Position numbers and translations under genes: made by a program. From the NCBI RefSeq assembly GCF_016907275.1, contig NZ_JAFBBP010000001.1:1-64000 (forward strand): a stretch of 64,000 nucleotides of DNA, written 5' to 3'. This stretch comes from Micromonospora luteifusca. Lineage in GTDB: Bacteria; Actinomycetota; Actinomycetes; Mycobacteriales; Micromonosporaceae. The notes beneath the pieces were generated by a model. That model was not told the origin of the DNA, searched no databases, and saw only the letters and a list, made by a program, of their open reading frames with translations. Numbering within the stretch: position 1 is the first letter of the stretch; each line of letters begins with the position of its first letter. This document shows, piece by piece, positions 27,116-41,874 of this stretch.

Positions 27116-27351
27116 CGCGGTCCTCCGGGGTGGCCGAACGGGGGCCTCAGCCTGCCCCACCCCGACCCGCGCCGACCTCCCCCGCGGGAGGGATCATCAC
27201 CGTGAAAACGTGCTCGGCCCAAAACTCCAGAGTAGTCAATTGCACCGCCGAGAACCCCGGTCAAATATGACAGTGCGTCGGTACAATCGGCGACTGCGTT
27301 GTGACCGATCGCTGACTGCCCATGGTGAAAGCGATCACACACACTCATCCC

Positions 27352-28128
27352 ATGAACAGGAGAGTCAACCGCGGTAAGGCACTCCGCGTCGCGGTGTGTC
27401 TCCTTCTTCTCGCCGCACTGAGCAGCTGCATGCAACTCAACATGGGGCTCACCGTCAACGCCGACGACACGGTCGACGGGCAATTGCTGCTGACGGCCCA
27501 GAAGTCCCTGCTGAGCTCCCGGAACAAGAACATTCCGGCGGCGTTCGCGGAGCTGCGGCAGAACATTCCCGCCCTTCCGCAGGGCGAGGAGACCGGTTAC
27601 GAGGATGACAAACTCTTCGGCTCCCAGATCAGTTATCACAAGGCGCCGCTGGCAGGTTTCGACACGGAGAGCGTGAAACTGGTCCGGGACGGTGATCTGT
27701 ACCGGTTCACATTGCCGCTCGACCCGTCGAAATACGGCGGTAAGGTTGCGCAGCAGAATCCGCAACAGCAGCAGGCATTCCTCAAGCTGATGTCGTTCGA
27801 GATCTCGGTGACGTTTCCCGGCAGGGTGATCGACAGCAATGGCACCGTCAACGGCCGGTCGGTCAGCTGGCAGGTGGACTCCAACCAGGACAAGCCGACC
27901 GAGCTGCGTGCGGTCGCCGAGGCGCCACCCCGACCGTCCCCCTCGCCGGCCGCCGCCAGCGACGAAGGCGGGTTCGGCTGGCCGCTGGTCGTCGGCGGCG
28001 TACTCCTCCTGCTGCTGCTCGGCGCGGTGGGCGTACTCCTGTTGTTGCGCCGTCGGCACCCCGCGGCGCCGGCGGCGCCCGGCCCGACCCCGCCCGGCCC
28101 ACCCGCCGGCGCCCCGGGGCCCGGCTGA
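27352..28128 (+). CDS. LppM-like lipoprotein with C-terminal membrane anchor
   Basis: The product is 258 residues. A signal peptide ends in a lipobox LSSC (about residue 26), followed by QLNMGLTVNADDTVDGQLLL, the start of an LppM/DUF3153-type domain. The domain runs to about 190, then a Pro-rich spacer, a strong transmembrane helix (about 213-235) and an Arg- and Pro-rich cytoplasmic tail. In mycobacteria LppM is an envelope lipoprotein involved in phagosome effects; its role in free-living actinomycetes is unknown. It lies just upstream of the injection-system operon on the same strand with a 146-base gap, and may or may not belong to it. Confidence 0.75.
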   Translation: MNRRVNRGKALRVAVCLLLLAALSSCMQLNMGLTVNADDTVDGQLLLTAQKSLLSSRNKNIPAAFAELRQNIPALPQGEETGYEDDKLFGSQISYHKAPLAGFDTESVKLVRDGDLYRFTLPLDPSKYGGKVAQQNPQQQQAFLKLMSFEISVTFPGRVIDSNGTVNGRSVSWQVDSNQDKPTELRAVAEAPPRPSPSPAAASDEGGFGWPLVVGGVLLLLLLGAVGVLLLLRRRHPAAPAAPGPTPPGPPAGAPGPG

Positions 28129-28274: not shown

Positions 28275-28610
28275 ATGGACGATCTCTTCACCTGGGCCGC
28301 CCTGGGCAGCCTCGCCGGCGCGAGCGCCGCCACCCTGTTGGCCACCAACGTCATCGGCGGGCTGATCGGCCCCAGTGGCGACAAGCTCCGCAAGTGGATC
28401 GCCATCGTCATCGCGCTCCTGCTGTCCTACCTGACGGCGGCGTTCGCCGACGAGGCCGGCGGCGAAAAGTGGATCATCGCGTTCTTCAACGCGCTGGTCA
28501 TCTTCTCGGCCGCGCTCGGCGTCAACCAGTTCCCGCCCGGCAACCGGCAGGCGACGCCGACCCAGGTCGCGAGCGGTCGCGAGCCCAAAATCTTCCGCTC
28601 CTGGGTTTGA
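28275..28610 (+). CDS. Small membrane protein at the head of the CIS operon
   Basis: The product is 111 residues with probably three hydrophobic helices (about 6-30, 40-60 and 66-85) and a short polar tail. The ATG has AAAGGGGG upstream. Glycine- and alanine-rich helices (SLAGASAATLLATNVIGGLI) and size recall phage holin-like proteins, but no family motif is clear. It opens the stretch of tightly packed genes that runs into sheath and tube. A role in membrane attachment or release of the particle is an inference from position. Confidence 0.6.
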   Translation: MDDLFTWAALGSLAGASAATLLATNVIGGLIGPSGDKLRKWIAIVIALLLSYLTAAFADEAGGEKWIIAFFNALVIFSAALGVNQFPPGNRQATPTQVASGREPKIFRSWV

Positions 28611-28622
28611 GGCGGTGACGTC

Positions 28623-29231
28623 ATGATCTTCGGAATTCTCAGCGCGGCGGCCCAGGTCATCCTCGGCGCCCTGTTCGGCTTCCTCGCCGGCGGCCCGATC
28701 GGCCTGCTGATCGGCGCCGTCGTGGGCCTGCTGATCGGCGCGGTCTTCGGCTGGGCGGTGACATCCGCCGGGGTGTACGCACCGGACGCCCGCGGCATCT
28801 TCCTCTTCGTCGTCGACCACACCTGGAGCCTGCTCAACACGGTCGTCGGCGCCATCTACCTGACCGTGCACCTGATCTTCGGGCACTCGCTGGACCGGCC
28901 CACCTCGTCCGGCAGCGGCCGGGTCAGCGTGCTGGAGGGAGTCTCGCCCCGCTACGCCACCACCATCGGCACCGTCTGCGCCGGCTCCAGCTCCGGCATC
29001 CAACGGCACGAGGACGTGCACATCTTCCAGGGTCGCCTGCTCGGCCCGCTCTACATCCCGCTGGTGCTGGCGAACTACGTCCTGTTCACCATCGCCCCGG
29101 TGTGGCTGCTCTACCACGACCACACCAACGCGCCGATCAACCGGTTCACCCGGTACTTCGAGATCGGTGTCTACCCGCACGTGTGGAACGAGGCCATCGC
29201 GTACCGGATTCAGGGGACCCCGCCGCGATGA
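28623..29231 (+). CDS. Membrane protein with glycine zipper and HExxH-like motif
   Basis: The product is 202 residues. The N-terminus is a long Gly/Ala/Leu hydrophobic hairpin (LFGFLAGGPIGLLIGAVVGL). One or more further helices follow near 55-80 and 138-158. Between them lies RHEDVHIFQGRLLGPLYIPL, in which HEDVH fits the zinc-metalloprotease HExxH form. Integral membrane proteins with HExxH-then-LGPLY segments are known but poorly characterised. It overlaps the next gene by 4 bases (ATGA). It could process or anchor a CIS component in the membrane; activity is unproven. Confidence 0.6.
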   Translation: MIFGILSAAAQVILGALFGFLAGGPIGLLIGAVVGLLIGAVFGWAVTSAGVYAPDARGIFLFVVDHTWSLLNTVVGAIYLTVHLIFGHSLDRPTSSGSGRVSVLEGVSPRYATTIGTVCAGSSSGIQRHEDVHIFQGRLLGPLYIPLVLANYVLFTIAPVWLLYHDHTNAPINRFTRYFEIGVYPHVWNEAIAYRIQGTPPR

Positions 29232-29926
29232 GCACCGGCGGGCGCGGACCGATCGAGACGGCGACCGCCGAGCTGGCCGCCTGGCTGACCAGCGCGGCGG
29301 GGGAACCCGTCCCGATCGGCCCGCCCCGCGCGTGCGATGACACCACCGGGCTCACCCTCTGGCCACTGGAGCTGCGTCCGGCTCGGCAGACCCGCTCCAG
29401 CGGCGCGGTCCGCGAACCCTACCGGTTCACGGTCCGCTACCTGCTGTGCGTGAGCGGGCCGGGTGGGATGCCCCGGTTGGACCGGGTGCTCACCGCCGCG
29501 ACGAGCGACGGCAGCTACCCGGTCGCCCTGGAGGCCGGCGAGGCCGCACTGTGGACGGCGTTCGGCGCCACACCCCGCCCGGCGCTGCTGATCGACGTAC
29601 CCGCACAGGTGGACCACCCCACCCCGGCCGCACCGCCGGTGCTGCAACCGCTGCGGCTGCGACAACTCGAGGTACGCGCCCTCACCGGCCGGGTGGTCGG
29701 TCCCGAGGACCAGCCACTGGCGGCGATGCGGGTCGAACTGTCCAGCACCGGATCCGCCACCCGCACCGACCCCGAGGGCCGGTTCCTGATCGCCGGCGTT
29801 CCGCACGACCCGGAGCAACCGAGCCCGGTCCGGCTCCGGCTGACCGGCCGTGGGCTCGTCCTCACCGCCGACGTCGACCCCGCCGAACCCGACATCGTCA
29901 TCGTCTGCGCGCCACCGACCCACTGA
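29228..29926 (+). CDS. DUF4255 (Pvc16/Afp16-type) CIS cap protein with C-terminal carboxypeptidase-regulatory-like domain
   Basis: The product is 232 residues. Residues about 5-150 fit the DUF4255 family, which includes the tube/sheath terminator (cap) of contractile injection systems. Residues about 150-232 form a small beta-sandwich like the carboxypeptidase regulatory domain (LTGRVVGPEDQPLAAMRVEL, then TRTDPEGRFLIAGVP). The cap ends tube and sheath growth at the distal end. The added Ig-like domain would sit on the far end of the particle. Its start overlaps the upstream gene (ATGA) and it is followed 24 bases later by the sheath gene. Confidence 0.8.
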   Translation: MSTGGRGPIETATAELAAWLTSAAGEPVPIGPPRACDDTTGLTLWPLELRPARQTRSSGAVREPYRFTVRYLLCVSGPGGMPRLDRVLTAATSDGSYPVALEAGEAALWTAFGATPRPALLIDVPAQVDHPTPAAPPVLQPLRLRQLEVRALTGRVVGPEDQPLAAMRVELSSTGSATRTDPEGRFLIAGVPHDPEQPSPVRLRLTGRGLVLTADVDPAEPDIVIVCAPPTH

Positions 29927-29949
29927 CGCCCACCCGCACAGGAGGACCG

Positions 29950-31194
29950 ATGCCCAGCTACTTCTCCCCCGGCATCTATGTCGAGGAGGTCCCCAGCGGC
30001 GCCCGACCGATCGGCCCGGCGAGCACCAGCATCGCCGCCTTCGTCGGCGTCGCCCCGGACCGCTCCGCCCAACTGGGCAAAGCGGTGCCGGTCAACAACT
30101 GGACGGAGTTCCTGCGGCTCTTCGCCGGCGGGGAACGGGTGGAGAGCACCCCGTTGGCCCGGGCGGTCTTCGGTTTCCTGGACAACGGGGGCGCCCGCTG
30201 CTGGGTGGTCAACGTCGGCGAGGGCGGCGCGATCACCGGCACCGGGCAGCGGCGCGGCGGCCTGCAACTGCTGGAGGCCGTGGACGAGATCTCCATCATC
30301 GCCGCGCCCGGCTTCCACGACGTGGTGTCCCACGAGGCGCTGCTCAGCATGGCCGAGCGCACCCGCACCATGGTCGCGATCTGCGACCCGGCACCGGACA
30401 TCGACGACATCGCCGCACTGACCCGGGTCGCCACGCCGTCCTCCGGCAAACCCCCCAAGCCCGCCGAGGGTACGGGCGCTTCCGGAGGTACGGCCGGGCC
30501 TGGCGGCTCCGGCGGGCACGAGGGGGCGGCCTACCGGCCCCGACAGTCCGAGTTCGGCGCCTTCTACTACCCCTGGCTGCGGGTACGCGACCCGATCAGC
30601 GGCGAGTTGGAACTCACCCCGCCGAGCGGACACCTGGCCGGCATCTGGGCCCGCACCGACGCCCTGCGCGGGGTGCACAAGGCGCCAGCCAACGAACCCG
30701 TTCGTGGCGCCGTCGACCTGGGTTACCTGGTCACCCGACCGGAACACGACGTGCTCAACCCCAAGGGCGTCAACGTGATCCGCTACTTCGCCGGCGAGGG
30801 CATCCGGGTCTGGGGCGCCCGTACGCTCGCCGCCGAGGCCAGCGAGTGGCGCTACCTCAACGTACGGCGACTCAGCATCGCCATCGAACAGGCCATCGCC
30901 AACGGCACCCGGTGGATGGTCTTCGAGCCCAACGACTTCACCCTCTGGCGCTCGATCCGGCGCGACATCGGGGCGTTCCTCACCCGGGTATGGCGCGACG
31001 GTGCCCTGCTCGGGCGCAGTCCCGAGGAGGCGTTCTTCGTCAAGTGCGACGAGGAGACCAACCCGGCGGACGTCCGCGACGCGGGCATGGTGATCGCCCA
31101 CATCGGGATCGCCGTCGTCAAGCCCGCCGAATTCGTGGTGTTCAAGCTGAGCCAGTGGGCCGGCGGCACCGAGACCGAGACGATCGGAGGCTGA
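29950..31194 (+). CDS. Contractile tail sheath protein
   Basis: The product is 414 residues, beginning MPSYFSPGIYVEEVPSGARP, the classic sheath N-terminus. It ends with the conserved C-terminal domain (FVKCDEETNPADVRDAGMVI, then FVVFKLSQ). A Gly/Ser/Lys/Pro-rich insertion (about 163-200) separates two sheath subdomains. The ATG has AGGAGG 4 bases upstream. Sheath subunits contract to drive the inner tube through a membrane. Only one sheath gene is present here, whereas PVC/Afp-type clusters carry two or three. The tube gene starts 2 bases after the stop. Confidence 0.95.
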   Translation: MPSYFSPGIYVEEVPSGARPIGPASTSIAAFVGVAPDRSAQLGKAVPVNNWTEFLRLFAGGERVESTPLARAVFGFLDNGGARCWVVNVGEGGAITGTGQRRGGLQLLEAVDEISIIAAPGFHDVVSHEALLSMAERTRTMVAICDPAPDIDDIAALTRVATPSSGKPPKPAEGTGASGGTAGPGGSGGHEGAAYRPRQSEFGAFYYPWLRVRDPISGELELTPPSGHLAGIWARTDALRGVHKAPANEPVRGAVDLGYLVTRPEHDVLNPKGVNVIRYFAGEGIRVWGARTLAAEASEWRYLNVRRLSIAIEQAIANGTRWMVFEPNDFTLWRSIRRDIGAFLTRVWRDGALLGRSPEEAFFVKCDEETNPADVRDAGMVIAHIGIAVVKPAEFVVFKLSQWAGGTETETIGG

Positions 31195-31195
31195 C

Positions 31196-31678
31196 ATGCC
31201 CACCACAGCCACCCCGCAGCCCGGCGCCCCGGTCGACCCGTACCGGGCGTACAACTTCCGGCTGCTCATCAACGGCGTCACCAACGGCCACTTCACCGAG
31301 ATGACCGGGCTGGAGGTGAACATCCCCGGGCAGCCGTACCGGGAGCACGGCCTCGGTCGGATGCGCATGGTGCCCGGCCAGGCCGAGTACGAGCCGGTGA
31401 CGCTGCACTTCGGCCTCACCGCCTCGCGCGAGCTGTGGGACTGGGTGAACGCCACCGCGCAGGGCACCCTCAACCGTCGCAACGTCTCCGTGGTGCTGCT
31501 CGACTCGGTCGGGACCGCCGAGGTGCTGCGGTGGAACCTGATCGACGCCTGGCCCACCCGGTGGCGGGGCGCGCACCTCAACACGCTCAGCCACGAGATC
31601 GCCATCGCCTCGTTGACCCTGCGCTACGAGGGCCTGGAGCTGGAGACCGGCGGTGCCACCGCGCCGACACCCGCGTAG
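31196..31678 (+). CDS. Tail tube protein (T4 gp19-like)
   Basis: The product is 160 residues. The blocks DPYRAYNFRLLINGVTNGHF, then TEMTGLEVNIPGQPYREHGL and DWVNATAQGTLNRRNVSVVL, match the gp19/Afp1 tube family. Tube subunits stack into hexameric rings inside the sheath. The single copy here contrasts with the separate Afp1 and Afp5 of longer clusters. It starts 2 bases after the sheath stop. The next gene starts inside its last 26 bases in another frame. Confidence 0.95.
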   Translation: MPTTATPQPGAPVDPYRAYNFRLLINGVTNGHFTEMTGLEVNIPGQPYREHGLGRMRMVPGQAEYEPVTLHFGLTASRELWDWVNATAQGTLNRRNVSVVLLDSVGTAEVLRWNLIDAWPTRWRGAHLNTLSHEIAIASLTLRYEGLELETGGATAPTPA

Positions 31679-33158
31679 CTGGCTGGCCGGCCGGTTGCGC
31701 TCGGCGGCCGGTGCGGTGCACCGCCTCGCCGGGCGGGTCGAGGTCGCCGGGCTCCTCCCGGCGAGCCCGCCGTCGGCCCCGCCCACGGCAGCACCGCGCC
31801 GCTTCGGCGAACCTCCGCAGCACTGGCTGGACCTGGTCAGCGCACACGCGCCCGGCCTGCTGCACAACCTGGACCTCCCCGTGTCCCCGGTCAGCGCCGA
31901 CGACGCGACCGCCCACGATGACCGGCCCGGCGAGACGGGTTCGATCGGTCGGCTCGCAGGTGGTGTCGCGGCCCCCGCCCCGGGTACCGCGTCCGACAGC
32001 ACCACCGGCGCGAGCGGCACTGCCGGCGCGAGCGGCACTGCCGGCGCGAGCGGCACTGCCGGCGCGAGCGGCACTGCCGCGGCTGGCCGGCGCGGTGGCC
32101 CGGGTACGAGCCGGTTCGCCGGCACGGACGGGTCGCGCTCGCCGGGCGGGACCAAGCGTTCGGGTCGCAGGTCGGCGACAGGTGACGGACCAGCCGGCGA
32201 AGGCACCGACGACGCAGGCTCACCCGGCGGAGTCGGGCCCGACACATCGGCAGGGCCGTCCGGGTCGGGCACCTCGGCGCGACCGGCGGGATCGGATGCG
32301 TGGGGCGATACCGCAGCGGTCGGCGGGACCGGGGTGCCACGGGCCGGCGAACCCGCTCAACCAGTCCGCCCGCTGATCCGCCCCGCGATCTGGGGTCCAC
32401 CCGCCAGCCACCTGCCGCCCCGGACCGACGACGTCGAATCCACCCGACCCACGGCACGCGCTCCCCGCTCAACCCTTGATCCACTCTGGTCCGGCCCGCC
32501 CTCGACCAGCGGTGACGCCGTCGCCGACCGACTTTCGAGTGGTCACGACCGGCTTCGCGACGACCCGGACGGATCGGGGGACGACCAGACCCGGAGCCGG
32601 GCTGGCCACCCCGGGTTCGCGGGCGGCCACCCCGGGTTCGCGGGCGGCCACCCGGGGTTCGCGGGCGGGCGAGGGGTACCAGGCGGGACACGGCCTTCCG
32701 GGCCAGGCGACGCGGCGACGCGGCGGACACCGGCGGACCCGGACCTGGACGGGGTCGACCGGCCGTGGACCGGTTCGACCGGCGCGACGGTGGCAGCCGA
32801 CGGTGGGGGTTCGACCATCGAGCGGCGTCGCGACCTGGACCACGCCGCGGGCGACTGGCCCTGGCTGGCCCTCCCCGACGAGCCGGCACGACCTCGGCAA
32901 CGGCCCCGGCGAGCAGCCGGGCGGCGGGTCGACGAGACGGGAACGTTCGGCGGCGCGGCGTGGGCCGCCGGATGGGGGCGCGGCGCGACCGGCGGCGGGC
33001 GGTCGACGAACACCGGCCCGCCGTCGTCCACGGTCGAGCTGAGGGTCACCGACCCGTGGCCGGCGCTGCCCGACGACGCGACGCTCTGGACCGTGCCGGC
33101 TGACGCGTTGAACGATGCCCAGCTCAGCCGGTTGGATCACGAACAGGCGGGCGACTGA
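31653..33158 (+). CDS. Low-complexity, probably disordered CIS-locus protein with short tandem repeats
   Basis: The product is 501 residues from a GTG at 31653 that overlaps the tube gene. Only the ends look ordered: an N-terminal segment (FGEPPQHWLDLVSAHAPGLL near 51-70) and a C-terminal one (VELRVTDPWPALPDDATLWT, then DALNDAQLSRLDHEQAGD). The rest is Gly/Ser/Thr/Pro/Asp-rich. It contains four SGTAGA units (18-base repeats near 32,007-32,078) and three HPGFAGG units (21-base repeats near 32,606-32,669). It sits where some clusters have small assembly factors. It shares one base with the next start (TGATG). It could be a linker, chaperone or tape-measure substitute; helices typical of tape measures are absent. 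Confidence 0.75.
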   Translation: MPPRRHPRSWLAGRLRSAAGAVHRLAGRVEVAGLLPASPPSAPPTAAPRRFGEPPQHWLDLVSAHAPGLLHNLDLPVSPVSADDATAHDDRPGETGSIGRLAGGVAAPAPGTASDSTTGASGTAGASGTAGASGTAGASGTAAAGRRGGPGTSRFAGTDGSRSPGGTKRSGRRSATGDGPAGEGTDDAGSPGGVGPDTSAGPSGSGTSARPAGSDAWGDTAAVGGTGVPRAGEPAQPVRPLIRPAIWGPPASHLPPRTDDVESTRPTARAPRSTLDPLWSGPPSTSGDAVADRLSSGHDRLRDDPDGSGDDQTRSRAGHPGFAGGHPGFAGGHPGFAGGRGVPGGTRPSGPGDAATRRTPADPDLDGVDRPWTGSTGATVAADGGGSTIERRRDLDHAAGDWPWLALPDEPARPRQRPRRAAGRRVDETGTFGGAAWAAGWGRGATGGGRSTNTGPPSSTVELRVTDPWPALPDDATLWTVPADALNDAQLSRLDHEQAGD

Positions 33159-34060
33159 TGGAACGCGTCGCCTTCCTCATCGACTCCTCCGGCGAGCGGG
33201 TGGACTGCCTGCTCAACCCGGAGACCGTGCAGGTGACCCGGCTCGCCGGCGTACGCCATCGGGGTGTCGCCGGCGGGCAGCTCACCGGATCCGGGCTGGC
33301 CGACGATCCGCTGGTCTTCACCGGCGGCGGCCGGACCGAACTGGTGCTCGACCTGCTCTTCGACGTCGACTTCGTGGAGGCGCAGGTCCGCCCGGCCGAC
33401 GTACGGGTGCTGACCCGTCCCCTCTGGATGCTGGCGGAGAACTCAACCGCCGAGCATGGCTGGCTGCGACCGCCGCTGGTCCGGTTGGTCTGGGGCAAGA
33501 CCTGGAACGTGCCCGGCGTGATCATCGCGGTGGCGGAACGGTTCGACGCGTTCACCGGCACCGGGTCACCTCGACGCTCCTGGCTGCGGCTGAAGCTGGT
33601 CCGGGCCGCCGAGTCCGCCGACCAGGCCGAGGCCGGCTTCGCCGAGGAGTTGGCCGCGGCGAGCACCCCGACCGCCGCACCGGGCAGCGCGGTCATCGCT
33701 GCCGGCGACGGCGCGGCAGAGCCGGGTCGGTCCGGGGTGCGCTTCGACCTGCTGGCCAACGACGCCCTCGGCTCTCCGCTGCGCTGGCGCCTCCTGGCCG
33801 AACACAACCGGATCACCGATCCGCTGGCGGTGCCCGCCGGCACCACCCTCGCCGTCCCGCCAGCCGCCGGCATCCGGGCCGGCGGCACGCCGGGGAGCGG
33901 ATCGACGTTTGCCGGTGCGGTTGCGGGGATGGCGCGGACGATGGCCGGCGCGGTGAGCGCAGGAGCATCGTTCGTGGGCGCCTCGATCGCCGGCAGCACC
34001 GGGCCAGGCAACCCCGGGCCAAGCAGCACCGGGCCAGGCAGCACCGGGGGTACGCCGTGA
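33158..34060 (+). CDS. CIS tube/baseplate adaptor (Afp7/Pvc7-like) with LysM-like domain
   Basis: The product is 300 residues. Residues about 1-150 match the CIS tube-adaptor family (MERVAFLIDSSGERVDCLLN, PLWMLAENS, RPPLVRLVWGKTWNVPGVII). Residues about 195-240 look like a LysM fold (RWRLLAEHNRITDPLAVPAG). The tail (about 250-300) is Gly/Ser/Ala-rich with SSTGPGSTGG-like repeats. These adaptors connect tube to spike. The ATG overlaps the previous stop (TGATG) and the gene ends in a GTGA overlap with the spike gene. Confidence 0.85.
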   Translation: MERVAFLIDSSGERVDCLLNPETVQVTRLAGVRHRGVAGGQLTGSGLADDPLVFTGGGRTELVLDLLFDVDFVEAQVRPADVRVLTRPLWMLAENSTAEHGWLRPPLVRLVWGKTWNVPGVIIAVAERFDAFTGTGSPRRSWLRLKLVRAAESADQAEAGFAEELAAASTPTAAPGSAVIAAGDGAAEPGRSGVRFDLLANDALGSPLRWRLLAEHNRITDPLAVPAGTTLAVPPAAGIRAGGTPGSGSTFAGAVAGMARTMAGAVSAGASFVGASIAGSTGPGNPGPSSTGPGSTGGTP

Positions 34061-35649
34061 CCAGCGTGGCGCCCCGGGCGTTGATCGTCCTGCTCGACGG
34101 TGCCGAGCTGACCGGTGCGGCCCGTCAGCGGATTCGCTCACTGCGGGTGGCGGCTCGGCTCGACCAGCCCACGCAGGCGGAGCTGGTGCTCGCCACCACT
34201 GCCGGCCCGGGCGCGCTCGACCCGGCGGTACGCCCCGGCACGACACTCGACGTACGGCTCGCCGACCATGCCGACGTCCTGTTCAGCGGTGAGGTCACCG
34301 CGGTGGAGGTCGAATACGCCGCGGACGGAGCGGCGGTGCTGCGGCTGCGGGCGTACGACCCGCTGCATCGGCTGCGTAAGCGGCAGGGGTTGCGGGTCTT
34401 CACCTCGGTGACCGCCGTCGAGCTGGCCCGGGAGCTGTGCGGCGAGGTGGGGCTGGACGTGACCGCCGAGGTCGACGGGCCACGGCTGGAACGGCTGCTG
34501 CAACACCGGCACAGCGATCTGGAGCTGCTCCGCGAGGTGGCCGGCCGGGCCGGGCTGCACCTGGCCACCGACGGCGACGGGCTCCGGCTGATCACTCTGG
34601 CCGGCTACGGCGAGCCGATCGCGTTGACCCTCGGCGCGGGCGTGCACACCCTGCGGCTGTCCACCAACGCCGACCAGTCCAGCGGTGCCAGCGCGGCGCT
34701 GGGCTGGCACCCGCAGCGGGCCGAGGTGATCAGCCAGCAGGCCGACGAGGCGCGCTGTGGCCGACCCGCCCGCGATCGCCCGGACCCGGCCGACGTGGGT
34801 GCCGACGGGGTACGCACCGTCGTCGACCAGCCCGGCCGCAGCGACGACGAGTTGGCGGCGCTGGCCCAGGCGCGACTGGACACCCGCGCGGCGGCGCTGG
34901 TCACCGCCGAGGGGGTGGCCGAGGGTGACCCGGCACTGCGGCCCGGCCGACGGGTCGACCTGAGCGGTGTGCCCGACCCGGTCGCCGGGGCGTACGTGTT
35001 GACCGAGGTGGTGCACACCGTGGACGGCAACGGCCACCTGACGCGGTTCTCCACCGTGCCGCCGGCCACCCCGTCGGCGCCGACCGCCGGCGCGGTGGTC
35101 ACCCTCGGGACCGTCACCGACGTCGCCGACCCGGACGGGTTGGGCCGGGTCCGTCTGACCCTGCCGGCGTACGGGGACCTGGACGCCGGCTGGCTCGCGG
35201 TGCTCTGCCCCGGTGCCGGGCGCGGCAAGGGTCTGGTGGCGCTCCCCGATCCGGACGACACCGTGCTGGTGGTGCTGCCCGGTGGCGAGCCGGCCTCGGG
35301 CATCGTGCTCGGTTCGCTGTTCGGCGCTGTCGAGCCGTACGACGCGGGCATCGACGACGGGAAGGCGCGTCGCTGGACGCTGCGCACCGCCGGCGGGCAG
35401 TCGATCGTCGTCGACGACGTGCGGCGCAGTCTGCGGCTCGGCACCGAGGGTGGCAGCTTTCTGGAACTGACCCCCGATCTGGCCACTCTGCACGCGGCGT
35501 CCGACCTGGTGATCTCCGCACCCGGCCGGGCCATGGTGGTGCGCGCCCGCAGCGTGGACTTCCTGCACGCCGACTCGACCGAGGACTCGACGACCGCGGC
35601 GCGGCAGGCCCGTTCGCTCGCCCGCGCCCACCACGAAGGAGGCGGCTGA
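34057..35649 (+). CDS. VgrG/gpD-gpV-like baseplate spike protein (Afp8/Pvc8)
   Basis: The product is 530 residues from a GTG that overlaps the upstream stop. The N-terminal gpD-like part (about 1-330) has SVTAVELARELCGEVGLDVT, then LLQHRHSDLELLREVAGRAG. An OB-fold gp5/gpV domain (about 350-430) has LGTVTDVADPDGLGRVRLTL, then WLAVLCPGAGRGKG. A beta-helical-like stretch then carries TAGGQSIVVDDVRRSLRLGT. Trimers form the central spike hub under the tube. It overlaps the tip gene by one base. Confidence 0.92.
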   Translation: MTSVAPRALIVLLDGAELTGAARQRIRSLRVAARLDQPTQAELVLATTAGPGALDPAVRPGTTLDVRLADHADVLFSGEVTAVEVEYAADGAAVLRLRAYDPLHRLRKRQGLRVFTSVTAVELARELCGEVGLDVTAEVDGPRLERLLQHRHSDLELLREVAGRAGLHLATDGDGLRLITLAGYGEPIALTLGAGVHTLRLSTNADQSSGASAALGWHPQRAEVISQQADEARCGRPARDRPDPADVGADGVRTVVDQPGRSDDELAALAQARLDTRAAALVTAEGVAEGDPALRPGRRVDLSGVPDPVAGAYVLTEVVHTVDGNGHLTRFSTVPPATPSAPTAGAVVTLGTVTDVADPDGLGRVRLTLPAYGDLDAGWLAVLCPGAGRGKGLVALPDPDDTVLVVLPGGEPASGIVLGSLFGAVEPYDAGIDDGKARRWTLRTAGGQSIVVDDVRRSLRLGTEGGSFLELTPDLATLHAASDLVISAPGRAMVVRARSVDFLHADSTEDSTTAARQARSLARAHHEGGG

Positions 35650-35987
35650 TGCGCTGGATCCACCGTGACTCCGTGATCACCTGCGATCACGACGGCCGGG
35701 TCGAGAACCGACCCTCGCGGCAGTGGGTGACCGTCACCGGCGTGCCCGTGCTGGTGGACGACGACCCGGAGGGCCGCACGATCGTCGCCTGCCCGAACTA
35801 CGGCCCGACCATCAAGCCGTGCACGACGACCCTGACCGTCCGAGTCGGCTACAGCGACTGGGTCCGCGTCGACGGACACCGGGTGGTGCTGTCGCACCTG
35901 GAGGGGTTCACGAACGGCACGCCGCCGGGGCTGGTCAAGCACACGGTGCGTGACCCGCGCCAGCAGTTCCTGGGGTCGGACCGATGA
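35649..35987 (+). CDS. PAAR-like spike tip protein of the CIS
   Basis: The product is 112 residues, directly after the spike gene with a TGATG overlap. It has CPNYGPTIKPCTTTLTVRVG and SHLEGFTNGTPPGLVKHTVR, a pattern seen in small eCIS proteins that occupy the PAAR/Afp10 position. Three cysteines (TCDHD, ACPNY, KPCTT) could bind a metal as in PAAR tips. It would sharpen the spike. The link rests on operon position and small size more than on a classical PAAR motif. Confidence 0.7.
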   Translation: MRWIHRDSVITCDHDGRVENRPSRQWVTVTGVPVLVDDDPEGRTIVACPNYGPTIKPCTTTLTVRVGYSDWVRVDGHRVVLSHLEGFTNGTPPGLVKHTVRDPRQQFLGSDR

Positions 35988-36418
35988 GGGCCTTCCGCTT
36001 CGTCGGTGCCGGCTTCGACGCCGGTCGTACCGGTGGCCTGGCGCTCACCGCGGCCGGCGGCCTGGCGATGACCGAGGGCGACGAGAGCGTACGACAGGCG
36101 CTGTTCCTGCTCCTGTCGACCACACCGGGCGAGCGGCTGATGCGACCCGGGTACGGGTCCCGGTTGCACCGGCTCGTCTTCGCGCCCAACGACGACACCA
36201 CCGCTGGCCTGGCCATCCACTACGTCCGGCAGGCCATCACCCGCTGGGAGCCACGGGTTGAGGTGATCGACGTCGACGCCGGTCCGGACCCGGACGACGC
36301 GTGGCAGCTGGTGATCCGGTTGGACTACCGGGTGCGGGCCAGCCTGACGCCCGGGCAACTGGTCTTCTCCGTCGACCTGCTCCCGGCCGACGAGCCCGCG
36401 CAGGGAGGCGCGTCATGA
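35984..36418 (+). CDS. GPW/gp25-family baseplate wedge protein
   Basis: The product is 144 residues. LAMTEGDESVRQALFLLLST, then TPGERLMRPGYGSRLHRLVF, is the gp25/Afp9 signature, including the EPR-like wedge contact region replaced here by PGERLMRPGYG. gp25 links baseplate to the first sheath ring and triggers contraction. It overlaps the previous and next genes by 4 bases each (ATGA). Confidence 0.92.
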   Translation: MRAFRFVGAGFDAGRTGGLALTAAGGLAMTEGDESVRQALFLLLSTTPGERLMRPGYGSRLHRLVFAPNDDTTAGLAIHYVRQAITRWEPRVEVIDVDAGPDPDDAWQLVIRLDYRVRASLTPGQLVFSVDLLPADEPAQGGAS

Positions 36419-39147
36419 CACTGCCCGTGCCGCACCTGGACGACCGCGGCTTCCTCGACCTGGTCACCGAGGCCCGGGAACGGATCCGGCAGTCCTGCCC
36501 GGGCTGGACCGACCTGTCGGCGCACGACCCCGGCATGGCGCTGGTGGAGGCGTTCGCGCACCTGACCGAGGTGATGATCTACCGGCTGAACCAGTTGCCG
36601 GAGAAGGCGTACGTCTCGTTCCTGAACCTCCTCGGGATCTCCCGGCACGCGCCCACCGCGGCCTGGGCGGACGTCCGGTTCACCCGCAGCGGCACCGACA
36701 GCGCCGCGGTGCGGATCCCGGCCGGTCTGCGGGTCGCGGCGGCCCGTGGCGCGGATCCCCGGCCGGTCATGTTCGTCACCACCGAACCGGCCCTGCTGCC
36801 CGCCGGTGAGGCGTCGGTGACGGTCCGGATGCACCACTGTGAACCGGTCGAGGCGGAGCTGCTCGGCGTGGGCACCGGCCAGCCCGGGCAGGTGCTGCGG
36901 GCCGCCCACGCCCCGCTGGCGCACACCGCCGAACCGTTGGATCTGCTGCTCGGGGTGGAGGTGCCGGCCGGCACGGTCGAGTTGGGTGCGGCGGCCCGCG
37001 AGCACGACGGCCGCACGTTCGAGATCTGGCCGCCGGTGGACAGCTTCGCGGGGATCGGGCCGCAGGCCAAGGCGTACCTGATCGATCGCTGTTCGGGCAC
37101 CGTCACCTTCGCCCCGGCCCTCGACCTGCGACCGCCCGCCGGGACGACCCCGGCCACGTCCGGCGACCCCGAAGCAGCCGCGACAGGCGGCCCGACGGTG
37201 GCGGCGGTGCCGCCGGCCGGGCGACAGGTCCGGCTCTGGTACCGGGCCGGCGGCGGACCCACCGGCAACGTGGCGGCGGGCACGCTCACCAGCCTGCGCG
37301 ACCCACTACCCGGGGTACGCGTCGACAACCCCGCGCCGGCAGCCGGCGGCCGGGAGATGGAGGCGCTGGAGTCGGTGTTGCTGCGCGGTCCGTACGAGTT
37401 CTTCGCTCAGCAGCGGGCGGTCACCGCGCGTGACTTCGAGGTCCTCGCCACCAGTTCCGGCGCGGTGGCGCGGGCGCGGGCGTTCACCCGCGCCGCGGTG
37501 TACAGCTTCGCCCGGCCCGGTGAGGTCGAGGTGGTGCTGGTGCCGTACGTGCCACCGGCGGCCCGCCCCGGTGGCCGGCTGCCGGTGGCGGTGCTGCGTG
37601 AGCACGAGGTGCCCGAGGCGCGGCGCCGGGTGGAGGCGGACCTGGAGGAACGGCGGATGGTCGGCATCCGGTCCCGGGCGACCTGGGCCCGGTTCAAGGC
37701 GGTGTCGGTACGCGCCCGGGTGGTGGTCCGCCGGGAGGAGGACGTGGACGCGGTCCGGCGCCGGATCCACGACCGGCTGCACCAGACGTTGAGCCCGCTG
37801 CCGACCGCGCTCAACCCGACCGGCTGGCCGTTCGGCGAGCCCCTGCGGGCATCCAACGTGTACCGGCTGCTGGAGCACGCCGAGCCGGGTGTGCGCTACG
37901 TCGAGTCGGTCCGGTTCGTCGTCGACGAGGCGCCCGACGCCGGGGTACGCGCGCTCGCCGTCGACCAGTACCAGCCGCGCACCTGGTACGCCGGGCGCGG
38001 CCCGGTGCTGTTTCGCTCCAGCAACGGCGGTGCGGGTTGGGAGCCGGCCGGCCGGTTCGACGACGAGACCGTGCTGCGGGTGGCGCCCGCCCCCGCACCG
38101 GTACGGCCCGGCATCGTCGCGCGTCCCGGCTCGGTGGCGGTGGTGACGCTGCGCGCCTCCGGCGGTTCCCGGGTGCACCTGAGCACCGACCTGGGCGAGA
38201 CGTGGTCACTGCTCACCGACCTGGATTCGCGGATCTCCGACGTGGCCTGGCTGGACCGCGACGGAGCGGGCGCGCTGCTGGTGGCCACCGACACCGGCCT
38301 GTACGAGGTGTCGCTGCTGCCCGGGGCGGTGCCGCTGCAGATTCTGGTCGACCCGTCCGACGCCGACCGGGGGTTCTACGCGGTGCGCGCGTTCGTCTCG
38401 GAGCGGGGCGCGCCGGGCGTGGCGGTGGCTGCGCAGGCCAGCTTCGGGGTGTACCTGTCGACCGCTGGCGGCCGGCCCGGCAGCTTCACGCACGTCGGTC
38501 TCTCCAACGTGGACAACCGAGTCCTCGCGGTGCAGTACGACGGCCCGGCGACCCTGCTGTGGAGTGGCGCGGGTGAGCCGGACCCGAGGAAGCCCGGCCA
38601 GGGTTGTCACCGCACCCGGCTGTTCGAATCCGACGTGAAGTGGCAGTCGGTGCAGGCCGGCTGGATCGGCGGCACCTGCCGGGATCTCGCGTTCGCCGGG
38701 CCGCAGGCGGTGGCGGCCACGCAGAGCGGCGGGGTGTTGCGGCTGGACACCCTGGCCGCCCAGCCACAGTGGCAGTCGGTGTCGGTCAACTGCGGTCTGC
38801 CGCTGCGGGACCGGACCCGCTTCGTGCCGGTCGACGCCATCGCCGTGAGCGGCGGCTCCGGCTCGGCCGGTCCCGCGACCGGCGGCTCCGGCGGCTCCGG
38901 CGGTGCTGGCGGTGCTGGCGGTGCTGGCGGAACCATCGGGGCTGGCGGGGCCGGCGGAGCCGCCGCGGAGCGGTTGATCCTGGCCGGCGGTGAGCGCGGC
39001 GTGCACCGCAGCGCCGACGCCGTCGACTGGACACCCAGCGCCAACCAGGCCACCGCCGACGTGGTGACCGTCCCGGATACCTGGCTGCTCTGCTCCGGCG
39101 AGCACGACATCGAGGTGGTGCGCCAGGATGCGACGTTCGGCGATTGA
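36415..39147 (+). CDS. Baseplate J-like protein (Afp11/gp6) with C-terminal BNR/beta-propeller-like domain
   Basis: The product is 910 residues. The N-terminus (about 1-60: WTDLSAHDPGMALVEAFAHL, TEVMIYRLNQLPEKAYVSFL) and the middle part with FFAQQRAVTARDFEVLATSS match gpJ wedge proteins. From about residue 530 a new domain follows with sialidase-type Asp-box motifs (FRSSNGGAGWEP, LSTDLGETWSLL, HRSADAVDWTP), suggesting a beta-propeller of several blades. A Gly-rich insert (GGSGGAGGAGG) lies near 825-850. Propellers of this type bind ligands or proteins, so this could be a docking module on the baseplate periphery. It overlaps the next gene by 20 bases. Confidence 0.88.
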   Translation: MTLPVPHLDDRGFLDLVTEARERIRQSCPGWTDLSAHDPGMALVEAFAHLTEVMIYRLNQLPEKAYVSFLNLLGISRHAPTAAWADVRFTRSGTDSAAVRIPAGLRVAAARGADPRPVMFVTTEPALLPAGEASVTVRMHHCEPVEAELLGVGTGQPGQVLRAAHAPLAHTAEPLDLLLGVEVPAGTVELGAAAREHDGRTFEIWPPVDSFAGIGPQAKAYLIDRCSGTVTFAPALDLRPPAGTTPATSGDPEAAATGGPTVAAVPPAGRQVRLWYRAGGGPTGNVAAGTLTSLRDPLPGVRVDNPAPAAGGREMEALESVLLRGPYEFFAQQRAVTARDFEVLATSSGAVARARAFTRAAVYSFARPGEVEVVLVPYVPPAARPGGRLPVAVLREHEVPEARRRVEADLEERRMVGIRSRATWARFKAVSVRARVVVRREEDVDAVRRRIHDRLHQTLSPLPTALNPTGWPFGEPLRASNVYRLLEHAEPGVRYVESVRFVVDEAPDAGVRALAVDQYQPRTWYAGRGPVLFRSSNGGAGWEPAGRFDDETVLRVAPAPAPVRPGIVARPGSVAVVTLRASGGSRVHLSTDLGETWSLLTDLDSRISDVAWLDRDGAGALLVATDTGLYEVSLLPGAVPLQILVDPSDADRGFYAVRAFVSERGAPGVAVAAQASFGVYLSTAGGRPGSFTHVGLSNVDNRVLAVQYDGPATLLWSGAGEPDPRKPGQGCHRTRLFESDVKWQSVQAGWIGGTCRDLAFAGPQAVAATQSGGVLRLDTLAAQPQWQSVSVNCGLPLRDRTRFVPVDAIAVSGGSGSAGPATGGSGGSGGAGGAGGAGGTIGAGGAGGAAAERLILAGGERGVHRSADAVDWTPSANQATADVVTVPDTWLLCSGEHDIEVVRQDATFGD

Positions 39148-39643
39148 ACGGCTGCTGCCCGCCGCCTATCAGCGGGCCTGCGTGCCTGGCAGCGTGCTCT
39201 GGGCGCTGCTCGACGTGATGGAAGGGCTGCACGCCCCGGACGAGGCGATCCTCGCCGAGGTGGACGCCCTGTTCGACCCGTACCGGGCGCCGGACGGGCT
39301 GGTCGTGCGGTTGACCCGCTGGGTGGCGATGGACCACGTGGTGGCCTCGCACCGACCGGACGCCCCGCTGCCGCTGCCGGTGGGCCGGCTGCGCGACCTG
39401 GTGGCCAACGCCGCGCTGTTGGCCCGGTGGCGTGGCACCCCGTACGGAATGCGCAGAGCCCTGGAGTTGGCCACCGGGCTGCCGGGCTTCGCGATCGACG
39501 AGCCCGCCGAGCAGCCCTTCCACGTCGTGGTGCGGGTGCCGGCCGCCGCCGCCGGCCAGCTCGCCGTGATCACCCGCATCGTCGAGGCGGAGAAACCCGC
39601 CTCGACCACCGTCGAGATCGTCCTGGAAGAGGAGTCGTCATGA
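39128..39643 (+). CDS. Phage tail protein I-like (Afp12-type) baseplate protein
   Basis: The product is 171 residues. RRSAIERLLPAAYQRACVPG, then LLDVMEGLHAPDEAILAEVD and WRGTPYGMRRALELATGLPG, match the Tail_P2_I/phage-tail family that connects gpJ wedges to receptor-binding parts. It overlaps gpJ by 20 bases and the next gene by 4 (ATGA). No tail-fibre gene follows it, unlike in Afp/PVC clusters. Confidence 0.88.
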   Translation: MRRSAIERLLPAAYQRACVPGSVLWALLDVMEGLHAPDEAILAEVDALFDPYRAPDGLVVRLTRWVAMDHVVASHRPDAPLPLPVGRLRDLVANAALLARWRGTPYGMRRALELATGLPGFAIDEPAEQPFHVVVRVPAAAAGQLAVITRIVEAEKPASTTVEIVLEEESS

Positions 39644-40569
39644 CCACCGAGTGGGCGGTCGTCGCCGCCGCCGAGCAGTTCACCCTCGACCCGCGCAACA
39701 GCGGCGAGCTGACCTTCACCGTCTCCAACCCGGGAAACGCACCGGACACGGTGGTGTTCGACGTGGCACCCGGCGACGGCTCCCAGCGGGCGTGGTTCAC
39801 CGTCGCCGAACCACAGCGGGTGGTACCCGGCCAGGGCTCAGTGTCGTTCCTGGTCAAGCTGGCCGTGCCGGCGGGCACCCCGCCTCGGCGCTACGACATG
39901 ACCGGGTTCGCGTACTCGGCGAACACGGCCCCGGAGGAGAGCTCCCGTTCCAGCGGCCGGGTCACGTACGAGGTGCGGGCGGTCGCGCCACCACGGCGTA
40001 CCCCGTGGTTGTGGATCGCCGCCGCGGCGGCGTTGGTGCTGGTGGTGGTGACCGTGGGGGTGGTGCTGCTGACCCGCGACGGCGAGCCGGCCCCCGGCGA
40101 GCCCCGCGTGGTCACCGTCGAGGCGGAGAGCCTGGTGGAGGGCGCAGCCGTCGAGTCGCCGCGCAAGAGCGGCGCGGTCGTGGTGGCGCAGCCCAACTGC
40201 TGCGGGGTGACCTGGTCCGGCGACAAGCAGCTGTTCTTCCAGGGGTTGGCCATCGGTGACCAGGTCACCGTGACGGTGCAGATCCCAGCCGACGGCACGT
40301 GGCGTTTCGCCGCCGTGCGCACGACCTCGTTCGACTACGCCAACACGGTCTTCACCATCGACGGCGCCCAGGTCGGCGGCGCGTTCCTCGGTTTCAGTCA
40401 GACCGTGAAGAAGACCGAGTTCCTGGACGTGGGCACGGTCCGGCTGACCAAGGGCCCGCACCGGGTCACCCTGGCGGTGGTGGGCAAGACGCAGGGCACC
40501 AACCGCTACTTCGCGGGCGTGGACGAGATCCGGTTGACCGAGATCGTGGCGCAGGCCGTGGCGCGATGA
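39640..40569 (+). CDS. Single-pass membrane protein: Ig-like domain, TM helix, carbohydrate-binding-like domain
   Basis: The product is 309 residues. The N-terminal Ig-like domain (about 10-115; FTLDPRNSGELTFTVSNPGN, RVVPGQGSVSFLVKLAVPAG) has no signal peptide. It is followed by Arg-Arg and one TM helix (about 123-144). The C-terminal part (about 155-305) resembles a CBM6/35 jelly roll (VTVEAESLVEGAAVESPRKS, YFAGVDEIRLTE) with a CC pair. By the positive-inside rule the Ig domain is cytoplasmic and the CBM-like domain faces the wall. It is coupled to its neighbours by ATGA overlaps. It is a natural candidate for anchoring a cytoplasmic CIS baseplate to the membrane and wall; this is inference. 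Confidence 0.75.
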   Translation: MTTEWAVVAAAEQFTLDPRNSGELTFTVSNPGNAPDTVVFDVAPGDGSQRAWFTVAEPQRVVPGQGSVSFLVKLAVPAGTPPRRYDMTGFAYSANTAPEESSRSSGRVTYEVRAVAPPRRTPWLWIAAAAALVLVVVTVGVVLLTRDGEPAPGEPRVVTVEAESLVEGAAVESPRKSGAVVVAQPNCCGVTWSGDKQLFFQGLAIGDQVTVTVQIPADGTWRFAAVRTTSFDYANTVFTIDGAQVGGAFLGFSQTVKKTEFLDVGTVRLTKGPHRVTLAVVGKTQGTNRYFAGVDEIRLTEIVAQAVAR

Positions 40570-41027
40570 GTGGCCGGCAGAAGGCGCTGCTCGGGCTGCT
40601 CGCCGTGCTGCTGGTGGCGCTGTTCGTGGTCGCCGTCGGCGCGGGCCGGGACGACCCGGGTGATCCGGGCGCCCGGCATGGGTTCGTCGACCGGCTGGGT
40701 GCGCTCGGGGGCGAGCGTTCCACGGTGGACCCGTCGACGGTCAGCGCCGACTGCGCGGATGGGACCGGCCGGTTGGTGTTCTCCGGCAGCTGCGTGGTGC
40801 GGGTCGCCGACCCGGGCGGGCTGCGCACCCTGGTACTGCGCAGCGCGGCGCGGTTCACGGTCGTCGCGTCGGCGCCCGGCGACGCCGAGCTCACCATCCG
40901 CGACGAGGTCGAGCCGGCGTCCGACGGCTCCGGCGCGGTGGCGAAGGTCGCCGTCGACCAGGCCACCGAGGTGGGCCTGACCTGCCCCGGCCTGGGTAGC
41001 TGCACAGTCCTCGTGGCCACGTCCTGA
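40566..41027 (+). CDS. Small single-pass membrane protein with extracytoplasmic domain, CIS operon
   Basis: The product is 153 residues. The N-terminal MSGRQKALLGLLAVLLVALF forms a signal anchor (about 7-27). The rest is a compact beta-rich domain with four Cys in two close pairs (SADCADG ... GSCVV and LTCPGLGSCTV), likely disulfides outside the cell. It overlaps the previous gene by 4 bases. A short tandem repeat follows the stop. No family recognised. Its position next to the Ig-TM-CBM protein suggests they act together. Confidence 0.65.
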   Translation: MSGRQKALLGLLAVLLVALFVVAVGAGRDDPGDPGARHGFVDRLGALGGERSTVDPSTVSADCADGTGRLVFSGSCVVRVADPGGLRTLVLRSAARFTVVASAPGDAELTIRDEVEPASDGSGAVAKVAVDQATEVGLTCPGLGSCTVLVATS

Positions 41028-41028
41028 C

Positions 41029-41078
41029 CTGATCGTCGTGGTCACGTCCCGAGCTGATCGTCGTGGTCACGTCCTGAC
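41029..41078. repeat. 25-bp tandem repeat, two copies, in the CIS operon
   Basis: CTGATCGTCGTGGTCACGTC-type units begin at 41029 and 41054 with period 25. The preceding coding end (TCGTGGCCACGTCCTGAC, to 41028) looks like a third, diverged copy, so the repeat appears to have arisen by duplicating the 3' end of the upstream gene. It separates that gene from the last CIS membrane protein. Confidence 0.85.
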
Positions 41079-41097
41079 CTGAGAGGAAGGTGCCGCC

Positions 41098-41874
41098 GTG
41101 GGTGACCTGCGTAAGCCGTTCCTGCTGCTGGCCATGCTCGCGATCGTCCTGGCGATCGGGGTGGAGCTGGGTGCCGAGCTGCTGCTGGGCGGCGCCGACG
41201 CCGGCGCGGCGCTCGCCGACAGCGCCGGCGCGCTGGACGTGGAGCTCGACGACGCGTCCGGGGTCAGCGAGCCGTCCGGTCGAGGCACCGGCTACCTGGC
41301 GTTGATCGACGCAGTGGCGGTGTGGAGCACCGGGCTCTTCTGCCTGGGCCTGCTGCTGCCCGAACGCGTCCAGGGCCGTGTGCAGGGCGTGGCCAGCCTG
41401 ATCTTCTCGATCATCCTGATCATCGTCGGGCTGGTCGCGCTGATCGTCGCGTTCGTGGAACTCATGATCATGGTGTCGCTGTTCCTGGCCGTCCCGTTCG
41501 GCACGCTGGCGTACCTGGCGCTGTGGGGGTTCTTCCCGGTCGGCGAGGCGGCGGTGCTGCTCGGGCTGGTGCTCCTGCTCAAGCTGGTGTGGGCCGGGCT
41601 GCTGGTGCTGGCCCAGCCGCGCTTCCTACAGAACAAGGGCCTCGTCCTGTTGATCGTCACCACCCTGCTCTGCACGGTCGTGCTGGAGTTCCTGCACAAC
41701 CTGGTGCCGGTGATCCTGGTCAGCATCGTCGACGACGTGGCGGCGCTGATCTTCGCGGTGATCGCGATCATCTGGGGGCTGGTGCTGCTGATCGGCTCGA
41801 TCCCAGCGATAGCCAAGGCCATCCGGGTCACCGCAGCCCTGCCCGCCCGGGCCGGAGCGCACCCTTCCCGCTGA
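41098..41874 (+). CDS. Polytopic membrane protein, last gene of the CIS operon
   Basis: The product is 258 residues from a GTG with GAGAGGAAGG upstream. There is one helix near residues 7-32, an acidic loop (about 36-62), then five or six strongly hydrophobic helices from 66 to 245 (LIFSIILIIVGLVALIVAFV and similar), and a basic tail. No transporter motif is visible. Together with the other membrane proteins it makes the operon unusually membrane-rich for a CIS. It ends just before palindrome element B. Confidence 0.7.
   Translation: MGDLRKPFLLLAMLAIVLAIGVELGAELLLGGADAGAALADSAGALDVELDDASGVSEPSGRGTGYLALIDAVAVWSTGLFCLGLLLPERVQGRVQGVASLIFSIILIIVGLVALIVAFVELMIMVSLFLAVPFGTLAYLALWGFFPVGEAAVLLGLVLLLKLVWAGLLVLAQPRFLQNKGLVLLIVTTLLCTVVLEFLHNLVPVILVSIVDDVAALIFAVIAIIWGLVLLIGSIPAIAKAIRVTAALPARAGAHPSR

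Follow-up and report, generated by a model that had tools for sequence, protein, structure and literature searches.

The plus-strand gene cluster at positions 28275-41874 of the window, the 64,000-nucleotide stretch of Micromonospora luteifusca DNA analysed here, encodes a complete contractile injection system (CIS). Comparison with related sequences assigns it to a distinct CIS lineage, and our genome searches support the absence of the CIS ATPase marker as a trait of that lineage and not of a single genome. We lean towards reading the cluster as an ATPase-less member of this lineage that works at the membrane of the producing cell itself. It consists of 15 tightly spaced open reading frames (ORFs), rather than the 14 genes counted in the initial annotation, and neighbouring genes overlap at 10 of the 14 junctions (previously 9 of 13): six by 4 bases, two by 1, one by 20 and one by 26, the last hinging on the GTG at 31653 as the chosen start. 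The overlap sizes reported earlier (1, 4 and 20-26 bases) are all present on recount. Membrane segments in the following list were called by hydropathy, a crude method that also flags one segment in the sheath.

28275..28610, plus strand: A, small membrane protein with three hydrophobic segments (hydropathy)
28623..29231, plus strand: B, "glycine zipper family" membrane protein with three hydrophobic segments (hydropathy, alignment)
29228..29926, plus strand: candidate cap or tail terminator (position, syntenic homologues; CarboxypepD_reg below cut-off only)
29950..31194, plus strand: sheath, short form, 414 aa (PF04984, 5.2e-15; PF17482, 9.1e-15)
31196..31678, plus strand: inner tube, single copy (PF06841, 5.9e-31)
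31653..33158, plus strand: X, disordered, end motifs conserved, 501 aa (slot between tube and adaptor)
33158..34060, plus strand: adaptor or tube initiator, CIS_tube family (PF19266, 4.2e-11)
34057..35649, plus strand: VgrG-like spike with hub and OB domain (PF05954, 1.6e-19; PF04717, 6.3e-18)
35649..35987, plus strand: candidate spike tip, PAAR-like by position (syntenic homologues)
35984..36418, plus strand: baseplate wedge gp25 (PF04965, 1.3e-24)
36415..39147, plus strand: baseplate J, extended at the C-terminus by a BNR/Asp-box-like domain (PF04865, 1.9e-12)
39128..39643, plus strand: baseplate I, Cis12-like (PF09684, 2.7e-7)
39640..40569, plus strand: M1, one transmembrane helix between an Ig-like N-terminal part and an outer module (alignment, hydropathy)
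40566..41027, plus strand: M2, N-terminal transmembrane helix and an outer domain (hydropathy)
41098..41874, plus strand: M3, seven-helix membrane protein and lineage marker (seven hydropathy segments, genome searches)

The eCIS parts sheath, tube, spike, gp25 and J are all present by Pfam, which bears out the homologues of sheath, tube, adaptor, spike, gp25, gpJ and gpI named in the initial annotation, whereas its cap and tip are placed by position and synteny only. The cap candidate does not match the tail terminator family PF14065 at E 0.01 (Pfam, sequence level), and the tip ORF has zero Pfam matches at E 0.01; baseplate I additionally reaches TIGR02242 (9e-11) and CIS12_fam (1.2e-4), each below cut-off. 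A tip homologue adjoins the M3 homologue in locus L157. As had been stated, the sheath gene is single, being the one PF04984 match in the whole 7.16 Mb genome, and so is the tube gene; the 80 named relative loci likewise have one tube match each.

The order cap-sheath-tube-X-adaptor-spike-tip-gp25-J-I-M1 is repeated in relatives of several families and three phyla, which rules out a chance clustering of phage-tail genes. Gaps in this order are a missing cap match in three Arthrobacter loci (L100, L102 and L110), with an ORF occupying the cap slot of L100, and a missing tip match in L105; long N-terminal extensions of open frames were left in place in some relatives. Our phylogenetic analysis of the sheath places 45 lineage rows on one side of a branch with an SH-aLRT of 99, against 15 other family sheaths, in an unrooted tree made by a quick method, with long branches flagged and without a named IId reference. 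The lineage was found in Actinomycetota, Chloroflexota and one Acidobacteriota MAG. Of 394 genomes in a wide class sample, 2 had its sheath (E 1e-120), each a member of the window's genus, and the lineage is therefore patchy. Baseplate J carries a further mark: its best PDB match, 9gtp_1K, covers residues 119-499 only, and the BNR/Asp-box-like domain spans about residues 500-910, is alignable in 11 of 11 rows and as a profile matches the BNR-repeat structure 3b7f (4.6e-8). As judged by alignment, this fusion is a trait of the lineage.

An AAA+ ATPase is described as "invariably" found in eCIS regions in the available text of PMC10020575, and the parts available of PMC10020575 and PMC11495950 report that it is required for function or cargo loading, though particles form without it. 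The winged-helix domain (WHD) of CIS ATPases, PF22977, has no match in the complete 7.16 Mb genome, in agreement with the ATPase absence that the initial annotation had claimed. A standard cluster elsewhere in the genome, which would have refuted its reading, is rejected on the single sheath match and the lack of any WHD match. Among the matches listed for 150 family genomes, the marker occurs in 0 of 18 genomes with this CIS alone versus 44 of 55 with other sheath types alone; it is missing in 11 of those 55, and is therefore an imperfect sign of the ATPase. Genomes were sorted by hand into lineage and other types from the matches listed, each of the 18 lineage-only genomes having one sheath match; three 150-genome samples with agreeing handles were treated as one set, and Fisher p-values on genome counts and on sheath-M3 pairs ignore relatedness.

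A second ATPase profile (A2) found no match in the 80 named loci, 49 of which reach 8 kb upstream and 9 kb downstream of the sheath; its reach is limited, since among nine ATPase-type stretches it recovers only its own four source loci. Walker-type ORFs occur in lineage loci L057 and L058, at the locus edge in both, and in L096 and L097. Neither of the latter was retained as a CIS ATPase, the one in L096 being a LuxR-type AAA_16 regulator and the one in L097 having a start and a neighbour that suggest an ABC transporter gene. The genome-wide search covered the WHD-bearing type, and a different AAA+ protein of the cell could work with the CIS. DUF4157 (eCIS_core) had no match in the genome, but the control likewise matched nowhere. 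Our literature search, with most subscription papers and bioRxiv preprints outside its scope, found no ATPase-less CIS lineage of this kind.

All five proteins described as membrane proteins in the initial annotation have hydropathy segments; membership in the CIS lineage holds for 39640, 40566 and 41098 and fails for 28275 and 28623. Protein B (28623) overlaps the cap gene by 4 bases and carries an invariant HExxH with a distal E (H129, E130, H133 and E190 kept in 14 of 14 aligned rows). It is ruled out as a CIS part by G134 and G147, which keep its gene neighbourhood and have no sheath match, and by its distance from the CIS in G009, G016 and G125. Homologues of A (28275) adjoin the cap in L095 (42%) and L101 (37%); among the loci examined, only those of Micromonospora and Actinopolymorpha have A next to the cap, which rules it out as lineage core. 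In the CIS-less loci L137 and L138 no homologue of A was found, nor a simple empty site, as the part of the stretch that follows 28623 yielded none of the right-flank genes. The description "membrane-rich" therefore drops from five proteins to three.

The strongest association among these three is that of M3, which has no Pfam family; PHROGs and NCBIfam yielded no name for the membrane proteins. Among the matches listed for the 150 family genomes, M3 is present in 26 of 27 genomes with the lineage and in 0 of 123 others. Sheath and M3 lie on one contig, 9,848-11,433 bases apart, in 25 of 27 pairs, the other two being in fragmented assemblies. Distant hosts have one M3 per genome (12 of 12), with CIS genes on the same contig in 11; M3 is unlinked, or its linkage unseen, in G551, and in the Acidobacteriota MAG it lies about 15 kb from M1. 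Two lineage clusters have no M3 match, the one in G112 and the second one in G042. Co-transcription, proposed earlier as a refuting test, fails in that role, because the M3 homologue lies on the opposite strand in Chloroflexota and Arthrobacter and is still linked. This linkage looks as it would for a dedicated membrane partner.

M1 combines an inner part that remains alignable among relatives with an outer module that varies. Ten distant M1 proteins scanned with Pfam carry PASTA (8), Kelch (1) or META (1) modules. PASTA domains bind peptidoglycan. The module encoded here is perhaps carbohydrate-binding (CBM)-like, a label taken from source names and weak matches. A one-pass M1 that keeps its inner part and exchanges its outer module is, from these alignments, a trait of the lineage. 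Homologues or positional equivalents of M2 are found in Catellatospora, Microlunatus, Arthrobacter and Ktedonobacter.

Protein X belongs to no family in three libraries and has no transmembrane helix. ORFs with X-like end motifs fill the same slot in at least 8 loci, L109 and L103 included, and an X-type protein with conserved ends occurs in Chloroflexota too; the slot in L105 is 176 bases, too short for X. Since X is disordered, conserved at its ends and shared with Chloroflexota, the earlier claim that there is no recognisable tape measure may not hold, and X is a candidate tube-lumen, ruler or cargo-holder protein.

Gene linkage suggests docking of the CIS at the membrane, and the membrane-docked version put forward in the initial annotation retains in its favour the M3 linkage and an ATPase marker missing throughout the lineage, with 28275 and 28623 lost as membrane partners. 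The sheath, tube and baseplate, judging from the parts, would assemble in the cytoplasm, and M3 with the one-pass M1 and M2 would form a membrane platform. Contact may be made between the inner domain of M1, which is constant, and the Asp-box domains of baseplate J, while the outer M1 module, be it PASTA, carbohydrate-binding-like, Kelch or META, may sense or grip the cell wall. Wall damage or contact with a neighbour would then trigger firing outward through the membrane; without a loading ATPase, cargo could be bound to the tip or spike or carried by X; alternatively, the effect could be the membrane lesion itself. In its fullest form, which we offer tentatively, this would be a membrane-anchored, outward-firing, ATPase-free machine of single-membrane bacteria that reached a T6SS-like mode independently, with M3 as its base and interchangeable M1 wall sensors informing the baseplate of the position of the wall or of its failure. 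No TssJLM or other T6SS families were seen among the ORFs scanned.

Membrane genes are, however, no proof of docking, since the S. coelicolor CIS also depends on a membrane protein and is nevertheless unattached until it fires; the available text of PMC12237407 reports that CisA is needed for firing, with Cis11 as its predicted partner. The cluster could accordingly encode a Streptomyces-like CIS that is free in the cytoplasm, reaches the membrane only under stress, through a CisA-like M1, and kills its producer, with M3 as a protective or lysis-aiding accessory, a reading we consider rather unlikely. The closest solved sheath is that of S. coelicolor (8bky, 1.8e-104), J matches 9gtp best, and M1, with one helix and an outer domain, sits in the slot that CisA occupies after the baseplate genes as described in the part of PMC12237407 at hand. 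TPR-CHAT caspase-like genes adjoining the cap in Catellatospora-type and Actinopolymorpha loci would fit cell death, but they occur in just 12 of the 80 named loci and are absent around the window's cluster. Moreover, a lineage-wide lack of the ATPase marker with near-perfect M3 linkage is not described for the Streptomyces system in the portions of the literature available.

It is improbable that M1 is an injected effector like Sco4256, with M3 as its immunity protein. According to the accessible text of PMC10020575, Sco4256 is a proposed putative toxin with an Ig-like domain, a helix and a variable C-terminal domain, reported in purified particles. In the ATPase-type locus L118, the M1 inner-domain profile picks up an ORF with an Ig part and a helix that lies upstream of the sheath (E 2.2e-5 over profile positions 8-92); L115 is matched as well (2.3e-3), and M1 occurs in tandem copies in L161, L162 and L080. 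These matches are weak, as LppM proteins reach similar E-values through the helix alone; the outer modules are of binding type (PASTA, Kelch, META), none matching a toxin family, and variation in M3 does not follow the M1 module. A degenerate prophage tail or R-type tailocin, to which the phage-tail homology of every structural part might point, is scarcely credible given ORFs free of internal stops, a gene order kept across three phyla, dedicated membrane genes and 25 flanking ORFs scanned without capsid, terminase or integrase, as the initial annotation had noted.

A natural ATPase-less lineage over three phyla makes the role of the ATPase in CIS testable, and M3, a protein without a Pfam family, and M1 are concrete candidates for how CIS reach the membrane of single-membrane cells. 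The best solved relatives of the cluster's sheath and J are those of the Type IId eCIS (CIS-Sc) of Streptomyces coelicolor, with which the cluster shares the lack of a classic tail fibre and a one-helix membrane protein after the baseplate genes, like CisA by slot and helix. Unlike CIS-Sc, it has no WHD-type ATPase, a single tube, a short 414-aa sheath, a J with an extra C-terminal domain and the M3 partner. The S. davawensis CIS (tme group), as presented in the available part of PMC11126660, similarly forms a clade across distant phyla including Chloroflexota, and its cluster ends with a peptidoglycan-binding protein; the group is defined by a large Tme effector with an N-terminal DUF4157 and several helices, whereas the helix-less X (501 aa) occupies the tube-spike slot here. 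Thylakoid-anchored cyanobacterial CIS are held in situ by baseplate extensions, according to the text at hand of PMC12237407, and the corresponding sheath match, 7b5h (4e-47), is weaker than 8bky. In the haloarchaeal membrane-bound T6SS (clade IIa, Hbor_38620), too, a multi-helix membrane protein marks a clade thought to be anchored; as far as the available text of PMC11566945 describes it, its cluster legend lists an ATPase, and its putative anchor, compared with M3 by description, is a six-helix protein whose cytoplasmic domain comprises ~150 residues.

The cluster at 28275-41874 belongs to a contractile injection system (CIS) lineage, defined by its sheath type, that is real and conserved, lacks the ATPase marker and is almost inseparable from a membrane protein, M3. 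Reading the frames gave 15 plus-strand ORFs free of internal stops, with overlaps at 10 of the 14 junctions; the initial annotation had the tight packing and the strand right, while its counts (14 genes, 9 of 13 overlaps) are replaced. Pfam supports its names for sheath, tube, adaptor (CIS_tube), spike, gp25 and baseplate proteins J and I, cap and tip being calls by position. The features needed here are:

27322-28128, LppM-domain gene in the left flank, immediately upstream of the cluster
28623-29231, plus strand, membrane protein, "glycine zipper family protein" in NCBI
31653-33158, plus strand, X, between tube and adaptor; disordered, with motifs conserved at both ends and variable length
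36415-39147, plus strand, J, with an extra C-terminal domain
39640-40569, plus strand, M1
40566-41027, plus strand, M2
41098-41874, plus strand, M3, 258 aa with seven hydrophobic segments by hydropathy

The left flank also holds adenosine deaminase and NUDIX genes; genes for sugar transport and LacI genes follow on the right. X, which has a counterpart in the same slot of relatives L109 and L103, is possibly a ruler or cargo holder.

Scanning genome contigs with the sheath yielded 219 relatives, the best 80 of which were kept as named loci. The closest are from Micromonospora, with a sheath 98% identical in M. arborensis. Among these best 80 of 219, wherever contigs extend far enough, the order cap-sheath-tube-X-adaptor-spike-tip-gp25-J-I-M1 is repeated in actinomycetes (Micromonospora, Hamadaea, Catellatospora, Allorhizocola, Rhizocola, Actinopolymorpha, Microlunatus, Arthrobacter and an Actinomycetales MAG), in Chloroflexota (Ktedonobacteria, Anaerolineae, Caldilineaceae) and in one Thermoanaerobaculia MAG (Acidobacteriota). 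A few matches are missing from it: the cap in Arthrobacter loci L100, L102 and L110, and the tip in L105. In a quick tree of 60 sheaths, unrooted and subject to a long-branch warning, a branch with SH-aLRT 99 parts 45 lineage rows from 15 other same-family sheaths. The lineage was rare in a sample drawn from the whole class (2 of 394 genomes at E 1e-120). One Catellatospora tritici assembly carries the cluster twice in near-identical form (L086, L087), and genome G136 has two lineage clusters (C34, C43).

ATPases from four loci of Micromonosporaceae with other sheath types combine an AAA domain with a winged-helix domain, PF22977 (two were scanned with Pfam, and all four were aligned). PF22977 had no match anywhere in the host genome, which is complete in one contig of 7.16 Mb. 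The earlier claim that the cluster lacks an ATPase thus holds for the PF22977 type of AAA+ protein, the type searched genome-wide, and none of that type lies elsewhere in the genome. Across 150 family genomes, the domain is absent from all 18 with lineage sheaths only and from all 68 without a sheath match, and present in 7 of the 9 that hold both kinds and in 44 of the 55 that hold other types only (Fisher p 6e-10, kinship ignored); the marker is imperfect, as 11 of those 55 also lack it. A profile of the four ATPases retrieved only its source loci and matched none of the named loci (best 80 of 219), 49 of which include 8 kb or more before the sheath and 9 kb or more after it. Two studies describe PVC particles without their ATPase as assembling but lacking payload (PMC11495950), and the corresponding S. 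coelicolor particles as normal in appearance but non-functional (PMC10020575). Given these roles, an ATPase-less lineage would hold its cargo otherwise or need none.

M3, which matched no Pfam family, was found in 26 of the 27 family genomes that have a lineage sheath and in none of the 123 others that make up the 150. Two lineage clusters have no M3 match: the one in G112, with its split sheath match, and the second cluster of G042. Sheath and M3 share a contig in 25 of 27 pairs, separated by 9,848-11,433 bases. Each of 12 distant-host genomes has one M3 match, 11 of them, as judged from coordinates and the lengths of contigs, on contigs with CIS genes and the last (G551) on a 5.3-kb contig with no other matches. 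The M3 strand is opposite in Chloroflexota and Arthrobacter. In the Acidobacteriota MAG, a tip homologue adjoins M3 (L157:2125-4097) about 15 kb beyond M1 and is absent from the main cluster.

Of five membrane proteins assigned to the system by the initial annotation, M1 and M2 (one helix each) and M3 are retained; 28275 and 28623 are not. A 28275 homologue adjoins cap in Actinopolymorpha too, and is missing from that position in most other groups. Seven of the 12 genomes searched have a homologue of 28623. Two of these seven lack a sheath match and keep the left neighbours seen in the window, and three more have the gene far from the CIS, which rules it out as a CIS part. Its HExxH motif and distal E are invariant in 14 of 14 aligned rows, and its product, which we take to be gluzincin-like, looks from sequence like a membrane-embedded, CIS-independent protein. 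In Micromonospora and one Hamadaea the cluster is immediately preceded by the LppM-domain gene, which was not found in the two genomes keeping 28623 without a CIS.

What M1 proteins have in common is a beta-rich N-terminal region of about 120 residues and a single helix. The outer modules beyond the helix are dissimilar: of 10 distant members scanned, 8 have PASTA, 1 has Kelch and 1 has META. PASTA binds peptidoglycan. The window's M1 had no Pfam match; source names and weak matches suggest a carbohydrate-binding module. Tandem M1 copies occur in L161, L162 and L080 (Arthrobacter, an Actinomycetales MAG and a Hamadaea MAG). M2 combines its helix with an outer domain. Over its C-terminal 400 residues, J could be aligned in all 11 members compared (mean column identity 54%), and the profile of this part matches BNR-repeat proteins (3b7f, 4.6e-8), pointing to a predicted propeller fold.

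Gene linkage makes membrane docking of this CIS likely. In the working model we infer from it, M3, with M1 and M2, would bring the particle to the membrane, J would contact the inner part of M1, and the outer part of M1 would read the wall. A cytoplasmic CIS is kept alive as a rival by caspase-like CHAT genes upstream of the CIS, which are compatible with regulated death in some lineage members. They occur in 12 of the 80 named loci (best 80 of 219; examples are L084:6449-9079, L095:5988-8693 and L105:1789-4905). Nine loci of the Catellatospora type and two from Actinopolymorpha have a TPR-CHAT gene upstream of cap, the Acidobacteriota MAG has an upstream CHAT gene, and sigma-70 and S8 protease genes lie near 11 of the 12; none was present among the window ORFs scanned. 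In Microlunatus, a LuxR-type regulator with an AAA_16 domain (L096:5682-8567) occupies the slot upstream of cap that holds CHAT genes in other hosts.

Membrane docking, the likelier reading, has precedents in CisA and Cis11 of S. coelicolor (PMC12237407) and in a multi-helix anchor in haloarchaea (PMC11566945), and the S. davawensis cluster is described as ending with a peptidoglycan-binding protein (PMC11126660). The J chain of S. coelicolor, 652 aa long, differs in matching just residues 119-499 of the J studied here.
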